DNA from: an uncultured Chryseolinea sp.
GTDB taxonomy: Bacteria; Bacteroidota; Bacteroidia; Cytophagales; Cyclobacteriaceae
Direction: 5' to 3'
DNA: 15,002 nt
Assembly (NCBI GenBank): GCA_946478915.1
Contig: CAMLER010000040.1
Span: 1 to 15,002 of the forward strand
In this document: piece by piece, positions 12,556 to 14,188 of the stretch
Numbering within the stretch: the first letter of the stretch is position 1
Layout: every line of letters starts with the position of its first letter
The notes under the pieces: model-generated
Seen by the model: only the letters and a program-made list of their open reading frames with translations
Databases searched by the model: none
Told to the model about the DNA's origin: nothing
Made by a program: the position numbers and the translations under genes

Positions 12556-12867
12556 CTATTGAGCAACCTTCTCCAGATCGCTGATAAGCTTTGATGTAAT
12601 GCCTTTCGTTGTTTTATTTTCTTTAAAAACCTTTACCGACCGGCGCACCATTTCATATAATCCTATTGGGTTTTTATCAGCCTTGTAGCTGCCAATACAC
12701 CATTCGAGGTCAGCTTGAAGTTGATTGTCAATGCCCAGGTCTTTGAGTTTTTTGAGCGCTGTTTCGCTGGCTTTAACGATGGGGTTCGAATCGGAAACTA
12801 CCGTTGGTTTAGCGGCAGCCTTTCTCGCCGGGGATTTTGGAGAACTTTTTACTTCACTTTTGGCCAT
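12556..12867 (-). CDS. Small protein with basic K/A/P-rich N-terminal tail, unknown function
   Basis: I do not recognise the family by name. The 103-residue product has two parts. Residues 1-23 (MAKSEVKSSPKSPARKAAAK and following) are a basic Lys/Ala/Ser/Pro tail resembling histone H1-like tails. Residues about 30-102 look like a compact all-helical domain, with DNQLQADLEWCIGSYKADKN, GLYEMVRRSVKVFKENK and a C-terminal SKLISDLEKVA helix. No signal peptide or membrane segment, so it is cytoplasmic; nucleic-acid binding through the tail is only an inference. A good promoter match stands 22 bases upstream of the ATG. The tandem hairpin array begins about 200 bases upstream of this gene. Confidence 0.75.
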   Translation of the reverse strand: MAKSEVKSSPKSPARKAAAKPTVVSDSNPIVKASETALKKLKDLGIDNQLQADLEWCIGSYKADKNPIGLYEMVRRSVKVFKENKTTKGITSKLISDLEKVAQ

Positions 12868-12940: not shown

Positions 12941-12985
12941 ATGCAACCGAATGAAGTCGGTCGAGCGGCAACAACATTCGGGCAT
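12941..12985. repeat. Bulged 11-bp inverted repeat
   Basis: ATGC (12941-12944) and CCGAATG (12947-12953) pair with CATTCGG (12975-12981) and GCAT (12982-12985), leaving an AA bulge and a 21-base loop. A shorter hairpin, GTGGT with ACCAC, follows at about 13006-13022. The pair lies just upstream of the promoter of the basic-tailed protein and is not related in sequence to the array hairpins. A cruciform, an operator or part of a small RNA are all possible. Confidence 0.4.
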
Positions 12986-13071
12986 GAGCAGCGCATAATA
13001 CTTATCGTGGTGTGCAGAACCACCTTCACAAGAATCCGCCGTCATCGTCTTTAAGAATGATTTGATCACGA

Positions 13072-13916
13072 GTGTGAGTGGTTGATGAAGCGTGGAACGC
13101 AGCGTCCTTGAGGCAGCGACTGAGCTGTGACGCGCGCGCAGTGTAAGTAGTCTTGAACCTGAAGCAATTCACTTTGCCGATCGTGGAGTAACAGCAAACC
13201 GTCTCCGCAGAGTCTCCTGTCTCAGGGACTCTGTCGGACCCTGCATTTTTAAATCAGACGTCGACAAGAAACTCAAGATGAGTGGACAAAAGATGTTGAG
13301 ATGGAATATGAGGCATTAAGACGCAGAGTCCTTGAGACAAGAGACTCTGCTGTGACGCGAGCACAGTTCCAGCTAGTCGTGAACCTAAAGAATTCACTTT
13401 TGTAGCTAGTGGAATTGCTGCAAACCGTCTCCGCAGAGTCTCCTGTCTCAGGGACTCTGTCGGACTGTGCATTTCTATATTAGATGTCGACAAGAAACTG
13501 AAGATGAGTGGAAAAAAATGTTACGATGGAACATAAGGCATTAAGACGCAGAGTCCTTGAGACAAGAGACTCTGCTGTGACGCGAGTCCATTCCAACCAC
13601 TGGGTATCTTCGATATACGTAGACAAAAGATGTTATGATGGAGCATGAGGCATTAAAACGTAGAGTCCTCGAGACAGGAGACTCGCTGTGACGGGCGAGC
13701 ACAGTTCCAGGTAGTCGTGAACCTAAGGAATTCACTTTGTCGATAGTGGAGGTACTGCAAGCTGTCTCCGCAGAGTTTTCTGTCTCAGGGACTCTGTCGG
13801 ACTGTGCACTTTTAAAATCAGATGTCGACAAGAAATTTTAAGTCCTTTCCAAACACTGGGTTTTCATCAAGATGAGCTGACGGTCATTGCACTTCTAAAA
13901 TAGGATCTAGAAAGGA
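13072..13916. repeat. Tandem array of imperfect palindromes (about 225-bp unit, hairpins about 112 bp apart)
   Basis: Each full unit has a hairpin A, a central small hairpin, and a hairpin B that is nearly the reverse complement of A. A copies start at 13099, 13323, 13548 and 13660; B copies at 13207, 13433 and 13770. In A2 (13323-13350) GCAGAGTC pairs with GACTCTGC, and CTTG with CAAG, around the loop AGA with one bulged A. B2 (13433-13460) has the same design with CCTG/CAGG around TCT. Between A and B lies GTGAA...TTCAC (13379-13397) flanked by AGCTA/TAGCT. After B a conserved tail contains GTCGACAAGAAA. A1 is decayed, the third unit is only 112 bp, and a degenerate tail copy is at about 13880-13916. 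Nothing here looks like a protein gene. The segments between hairpins are repeated, so this is not CRISPR. It resembles mosaic palindromic elements or a multiplied fold-back element. Confidence 0.85.
13588..13866 (+). repeat. Extra 23-bp direct repeat inside the array
   Basis: A block reading CCATTCCAACCACTGGGTAT at 13588-13607 recurs with a few changes at 13844-13863 (CCTTTCCAAACACTGGGTTT). The first copy replaces the central and B part of the shortened third unit; the second follows the tail of the last unit. It therefore marks the ends of two units and may belong to the original element's border. Confidence 0.55.
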
Positions 13917-14043
13917 AAATATTCCATTACTCTTGCTGCCAACTCAATATAATTGACATGACCTAATCAATGACCAGATTGGAATAAAAAATTAAAGAAT
14001 CAAGGAAAAAGAATGATGGAGATGAAATCGATACGCGAGGGAT
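13917..14043. other. A-rich spacer with no visible gene
   Basis: Between the end of the hairpin array and the terminator below I see no ORF, RNA or repeat. The sequence is rich in A runs. Confidence 0.5.
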
Positions 14044-14085
14044 AAAAAAAACGAAAGGGAAGTAAATCTAATTTACTTCCCTTCG
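14044..14085 (-). terminator. Strong intrinsic terminator of the lysine/alanine micro-protein gene
   Basis: A perfect 13-bp stem, AAGGGAAGTAAAT (14055-14067) with its complement at 14071-14083, and a 3-base loop. Read on the minus strand it is followed at once by TCG and eight T (14051-14044). It begins about 27 bases after the stop codon of the micro-gene. Confidence 0.9.
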
Positions 14086-14110
14086 CAAAGTTTCTTTAGG
14101 CCTTGCCTAA

Positions 14111-14188
14111 TTACTTCTTCTTCTTTGCAGCTTTCTTAGCAGATTTTTTCGCTGCTTTCTTTGCTGCTTTCTTCGCTGTTTTTGCCAT
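14111..14188 (-). CDS. 25-residue lysine/alanine-rich histone-tail-like micro-protein
   Basis: The minus strand reads ATG GCA AAA ACA GCG at 14188 and stays open to TAA at 14113-14111. The product starts MAKTAKKAAKKAAKKSAKK and ends in KKKK; apart from Met, Thr and Ser it contains only Lys and Ala. The AAKK repeats mimic the C-terminal tail of histone H1 and of bacterial H1-like proteins (Hc1, AlgP type), which bind DNA non-specifically. Here the tail stands alone, without a globular domain. Reality is supported by a promoter match upstream and a textbook terminator downstream, which make a compact single-gene unit. Codons vary among GCA/GCG/GCT and AAA/AAG, so it is not a simple DNA triplet repeat. 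It is too short for most gene finders. DNA or RNA compaction is an inference from composition. Confidence 0.7.
   Translation of the reverse strand: MAKTAKKAAKKAAKKSAKKAAKKKK

Follow-up and report, generated by a model that had tools for sequence, protein, structure and literature searches.

A probable BIME-like hairpin array of a Cytophagales REP family in an uncultured Chryseolinea genome

Anatomy of the array

The window analyzed here is a 15,002-nucleotide stretch of an uncultured Chryseolinea sp. (contig CAMLER010000040.1), with an array of seven hairpins in an intergenic stretch. An earlier note, made from the letters alone, had described seven hairpins about 112 bp apart in the order A B A B A A B. 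The same seven were recovered at the positions given there, in orientations - + - + - - + and with start-to-start steps of 107, 117, 109, 116, 112 and 109. Six were matched by a covariance model of the hairpin (R1) at 40.6–55.7 bits, copies from the array having been part of its training set. A hairpin consensus pattern with up to three mismatches gave six matches in the window, all inside the array, and none in 200 dinucleotide shuffles. Folded singly, four of the seven hairpins were clearly better than shuffled sequences (z -3.2 to -3.7), two were weakly so (-1.4, -1.8), and the first showed no advantage (+0.7). Five of the six neighboring pairs were opposite in orientation, with spacers of ~70–80 bp. 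The array is made up as follows, where REP stands for repetitive extragenic palindrome.

13075–13298, no strand: module 1 (A1, spacer, B1, spacer), from the alignment and from self-comparison of 13075–13371 with 13297–13595 (84%)
13094–13131, minus strand: hairpin A1, decayed (R1 12.9 bits, E 0.064; folding no better than shuffles)
13201–13239, plus strand: hairpin B1, REP type B (R1 55.0 bits; z -3.19)
13299–13524, no strand: module 2 (A2, spacer, B2, spacer), from self-comparison and alignment
13318–13356, minus strand: hairpin A2, REP type A (R1 55.7 bits; z -3.69)
13427–13465, plus strand: hairpin B2, REP type B (R1 55.0 bits; z -3.50)
13525–13609, no strand: module 3, A half alone (alignment gap across the B half)
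13543–13581, minus strand: hairpin A3, REP type A (R1 55.7 bits; z -3.67)
13610–13840, no strand: module 4 (A4, spacer, B3, part of the last spacer), from comparison of 13273–13497 with 13610–13835 (86%)
13655–13692, minus strand: hairpin A4, REP type A, directly after A3 (R1 40.6 bits; z -1.40)
13764–13802, plus strand: hairpin B3, REP type B (R1 46.8 bits; z -1.77)

Self-comparison bore out that the sequence between the hairpins is repeated too. The repeat unit is ~225 bp with spacers included, its copies are 82–86% identical, and Tandem Repeats Finder gave a period of 226. Each unit contains, in order, a minus-strand hairpin A, a spacer, a plus-strand hairpin B and a second spacer, and units follow one another head to tail. 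Alignment indicated two complete units (1 and 2), a unit 3 without its B half and a nearly complete unit 4. The A A step in the hairpin order arises because module 3 lost its B half.

B had been described as nearly the reverse complement of A. This holds for the cores, which are 88% complementary over 34 nt, but the outer flanks of A and B differ, and the two are separate hairpin types rather than a single hairpin read in both directions. Read on the same strand, both share the stem CAGAGTC...GACTCTG, in which a single base bulges, with an inner stem and a loop of three bases. Outside this shared stem, type B extends the pairing (CCG...CGG), while in type A the stem is preceded by CAG and followed by CGT. 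At 4 nt before the CAGAGTC stem there is a GTC triplet (often CGTC), in 17 of 17 rows of an alignment (labeled A1, as distinct from hairpin A1). Both types were also present in a relative, Chryseolinea sp. CF_bin.38 (G002), where A stems are mostly CAGYGTC and exceptions to the GTC occur among the weaker copies.

Hairpins of the window and its relatives are imperfect palindromes of ~26–39 nt with a single bulged base. Their structure was assessed in an alignment of 30 rows (28 distinct) from six genomes or sources (the window, G001–G004 and G019). The 12-bp bulged stem was kept in 95.4% of pair cells, with both-side changes in five of 12 pairs. None of 500 shuffles reached the observed pair-keeping, both-side changes or covariation score; the observed count of further pair types was reached by 57 of 500. 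As the hairpin structure was drawn from these same sequences, the test favors it over slid versions of the structure. The hairpins are thus short imperfect palindromes under structural constraint, as REPs are.

Spread in relatives and the orthologous site

Across genome contigs, the hairpin pattern was found in five stretches, all in Bacteroidetes metagenome-assembled genomes and two of them in G002. R1 was then the basis of a survey of 196 genomes belonging to G002's family (E≤0.001; up to 34 candidates scored per genome, making counts lower bounds). Matches occurred in at least 52 genomes, with at least 32 in G002 and at least 25 in G019. The fixed pattern, at up to three mismatches, matched 21 times in G002, 25 in G019, eight in G167 and two in G140, with zero matches in G097, G160 and G186; a reversed-pattern control gave none in any of these seven genomes. 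R1 found no match in 104,020 bases from 30 loci chosen by their deaminase, and a related hairpin pattern had no match in viral contigs. Relatives thus hold many dispersed copies, an outcome that the earlier note had named as support for a mobile element.

Arrays of alternating A and B hairpins occupy at least 11 places in G002 (L097–L107). Over 12 stretches of that genome, 34 of 35 neighboring hairpins were opposite in orientation. Orientation counts, here and for other genomes below, used 83 of 86 rows; those dropped were a match cut by a contig end at L103, which would have given G002 one extra opposite pair, an overlapping opposite-strand reading at L109 and a weak row at L116. Whole modules, spacers included, recur among the 11 arrays, the best pairs ranging from 72% over 479 bp to 82% over 303 bp. 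In a second presence/absence comparison, made for one of these arrays (L099), the left flank alone was found in G019 and G097.

The site of the window array was compared with its counterparts in G002 and G019. Two further features frame it.

12958–14045, no strand: non-conserved intergenic stretch holding the array (blastn breakpoints and sequences)
14054–14084, minus strand: terminator-like hairpin of the small gene 14110–14188, a separate feature at the edge of the intergenic stretch (pattern scan)

At the dCMP deaminase, the window shares 95% identity with G019 and 93% with G002. The contig stretches compared preserve the window's gene order, over its positions 3.7–15 kb in G002 and 6.2–15 kb in G019. 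The DNA match to both stops at 12957 and restarts at 14043–14046 (blastn), leaving an orthologous gap of 160 bp in G002 (L051) and 717 bp in G019 (L050). Neither gap holds the hairpins, and R1 gave no match at either site. Since the array is missing there, its presence at this site belongs to the window's lineage. The intergenic stretch differs in all three genomes, so an empty site with target duplication is not cleanly demonstrable.

The array has the terminator-like hairpin on one side and, on the other, the upstream end of a 103-aa open reading frame (ORF); the two flanking genes lie on the same strand. A role of the array as terminator of the right-hand gene is unlikely because that gene's own terminator-like hairpin precedes the array. 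The right-hand ORF (14110–14188, minus strand) encodes 25 Lys/Ala-rich residues (MAKTAKKAAKK...) with a composition like a histone H1 tail, and its terminator-like hairpin is a strong one; its DNA is a 12/24-bp tandem repeat (14121–14182), and the flank is kept in G002 and G019. The 103-aa ORF (12556–12867, minus strand) has a Lys/Ala/Pro-rich N-terminus and is kept in both relatives, with no Pfam or NCBIfam match. No transposase-like protein was found among the ten window proteins scanned, a set that left smaller ORFs outside.

RAYT genes and the probable origin of the array

In relatives, the hairpins flank genes of HUH-Y1 REP-associated tyrosine transposases (RAYTs) on both sides, inverted and in fixed orientation. 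The earlier note had suggested looking for a transposase gene flanked by the same hairpins; relatives have such genes flanked by hairpins of this kind, though the window does not. Inverted hairpins on both sides were seen at 12 of 20 close RAYT loci, plus L052 and L053, and at none of 10 more distant ones. Each genome contributed its best locus to these 30, which do not represent every profile match. Flank counts used 64 of 74 hairpin rows; the ten dropped were weak (16.7–26.7 bits), nine of them overlapping an opposite-strand hairpin, and as far as the table shows they alter no nearest-hairpin result. A family-specific profile was used, as Pfam Y1_Tnp alone missed the RAYTs of L004, L053 and L054 as full hits.

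The relatives' RAYTs have the HUH-Y1 fold and its catalytic motifs. In them, the HxH-to-Tyr distance is 83–85, NH[LIV]H and SS motifs are present, the Tyr motif is mostly YIHANP, and WQ was not seen. A PDB sequence search with three RAYTs gave no match; with 44 it gave 4er8 alone, at E 0.049, and identity was decided by fold comparison, which matched E. coli TnpA-REP (4er8). The fold comparison and the larger PDB search drew on 44 of 120 homologues listed. At L054/L117 of G019 (~400–2600), eight same-way hairpins at ~126-bp steps lie upstream of the RAYT and three inverted ones downstream, with a piece of the gene's 3' end repeated between the latter; these repeats resemble the captured rayt ends in passages of Nunvar et al. 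A 359-aa ORF at L014 (G004:C58, 1255–2334, minus strand) holds two tandem RAYT-like domains, seen as two NF047646 stretches.

The array is very probably a BIME-like cluster (BIME, bacterial interspersed mosaic element) of a Cytophagales REP family, arising by RAYT seeding followed by amplification of the module in place. It has the anatomy of a BIME, with alternating, regularly spaced REPs and a two-REP, two-spacer module repeated head to tail, which agrees with the earlier suggestion of a mosaic palindrome cluster. The alternative suggestion of a fold-back mobile element survives in part: REPs are non-autonomous, RAYT-tied elements, but there is no fold-back transposon here. The earlier note knew of no named family with these stems, which is incorrect as to kind. 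The kind, REP/BIME, is already named, and the array is a new family within it; no paper names that family in the open-access literature searched for this lineage with REP or BIME terms.

We hypothesize that a RAYT, as a HUH-tyrosine enzyme like E. coli TnpA-REP, would bind the hairpins as single-stranded DNA, cut beside them through its tyrosine and rejoin the strands, seeding REPs at intergenic sites. The E. coli enzyme cuts and rejoins single-stranded REPs and requires tag and bulge, according to passages of PMC8266576. The ~225-bp A-spacer-B-spacer module would subsequently have been copied head to tail in place, by rolling-circle copying, slippage or unequal exchange. The first route follows the proposal, in passages of Nunvar et al., that RAYT cuts are followed by rolling-circle copying, which amplifies a REP-bounded module; array anatomy fits it and slippage or unequal exchange equally. 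Decay then left A1 degenerate and removed one B half. For the window itself, we infer RAYT action on the array, the amplification route and further copies in its genome.

Several observations weigh against this interpretation. The canonical REP tag, GTAG or GTGG at the stem foot, is absent, window copies having GTC 4 nt outside the stem. Most close RAYTs have a C-run before the hairpin instead of GTC, and they score under curated cut-offs (NF047646 ~62 of 80 bits; Pfam Y1_Tnp below 23 bits or absent). G002, whose hairpins are the most window-like, has no close RAYT at 1e-20 in its fragmented assembly and no RAYT beside its arrays; its five weaker RAYT/IS200-like matches are without an R1 hairpin in ~1.5 kb flanks. 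Thirty-three genomes have R1 matches but no close RAYT. Neighbors alternate in just 4 of 8 cases in G019 and 7 of 11 at six loci of other genomes; strict alternation characterizes G002 and the window but not every relative. Window spacers match no G002 array, the shared 42–63 bp being hairpins alone. Between species the hairpin is thus the conserved part and spacers are lineage-specific, as published BIMEs lead one to expect (section 5 of PMC2817692). Dispersal was examined in relatives, and seen in G002 and G019, rather than in the window's own genome. The nearest bridge is L118 (G078), a RAYT with a GTC-bearing, type-B-like hairpin (GTCTCCGCA...GACTCTGACGGA) 72 bp upstream; a second hairpin was not found downstream of this gene. 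The proposed link between window array and RAYT is one of hairpin homology, not of a cognate pair within one genome.

Other explanations were weighed against RAYT seeding with amplification in place. A locus-specific array kept for a host role, such as binding gyrase or nucleoid proteins or ending transcription between the flanking genes, with no transposase tie today, is very unlikely. Its position next to the terminator-like hairpin and upstream of the 103-aa gene would suit such a role, and published BIMEs bind gyrase and IHF (passages of PMC2817692). Yet the site is not conserved, the array being absent from it in the two closest relatives even though both retain the flanking genes, and G002 has comparable arrays in no fewer than 11 other places. 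Whatever host role the array may have is, on current evidence, a side effect. We consider it more improbable still that simple tandem duplication without a transposase produced the array, with hairpins as passengers. Tandem units 82–86% alike are what slippage or unequal exchange would likewise produce, but this reading does not account for hairpins of these types at many unlinked positions in G002 or for the fixed orientation of hairpins on both sides of RAYT genes; such duplication could well supply the amplification within the favored explanation. Least credible of all is a structured RNA locus, also raised earlier, or a CRISPR-like array. Regular spacing and stable hairpins would be in keeping with either, whereas the spacers are repeated rather than unique, orientations alternate, the site is not conserved and the window has no Rfam match at gathering score. 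CRISPR itself, with direct repeats and unique spacers, was rejected on the inverted alternation and repeated spacers, upholding the earlier view that the array is neither CRISPR nor a simple satellite.

Beyond RAYT-seeded REPs in general, a Bacteroidota REP lineage may have changed the tag recognized by its transposase, given the C-run beside most close RAYTs versus (C)GTC in Chryseolinea and the window, and given the GTC-bearing type-B hairpin already upstream of one RAYT (L118); we hold this doubtful. Were it so, GTC-tagged REPs, said to be transposase-less, would here be mobilized by RAYTs, and the two alternating hairpin types would be obligate partners.

Comparison with known systems

Like BIME-2 and the Stenotrophomonas BIMEs, the array has alternating inverted REPs of two kinds and two spacers per module arranged head to tail; it is likewise intergenic with decayed members (section 5 of PMC2817692). 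It differs in hairpin sequence, in having no GT(A/G)G head, in its ~70–80 bp spacers and in its phylum, Bacteroidota. REPINs share inverted REP pairs with a spacer, whereas the pairs of the array are concatenated.

The CGTC REPs of Di Nocera et al. (2013) are a superfamily reported in Bacteroidetes and, in passages of that paper (PMC3733652), said to lack a transposase. They share with the array GTC/CGTC on one side of the palindrome and mostly two-type (hetero) dimers. Their description there has a tag touching a stem of 8–9 bp whose first pairs are A-T, a 4–5 nt loop and a CCA tail. The array falls outside this strict definition, with a tag 4 nt off the stem foot at CAGAGTC, a bulge and a 3-nt loop. 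The absent GTAG and strict CGTC features bar those sub-families, not REP/BIME-like working.

As in the REPtrons of E. coli (RAYT/TnpA-REP, 4er8), HUH-Y1 genes of relatives have inverted hairpins on either side, although the window is without a RAYT. With the odd-looking array settled as REP/BIME, the covariance model finds this REP family and its RAYTs across Cytophagales genomes. These RAYTs partly resemble TnpA-Y1 subclass 2.6 (RAYT group 5) as given in passages of PMC6006769. They differ in YIHANP versus YIH[QN]NP and in that WQ was not seen, and agree in the HxH-Tyr distance (83–85 versus a median of 82), NH[LIV]H and SS. For subclass 2.6 of Bacteroidetes, the same passages report 'atypical secondary structures' on the flanks with copies elsewhere in the genome; the present family offers a second, non-GTAG test case for RAYT hairpin choice in that phylum.
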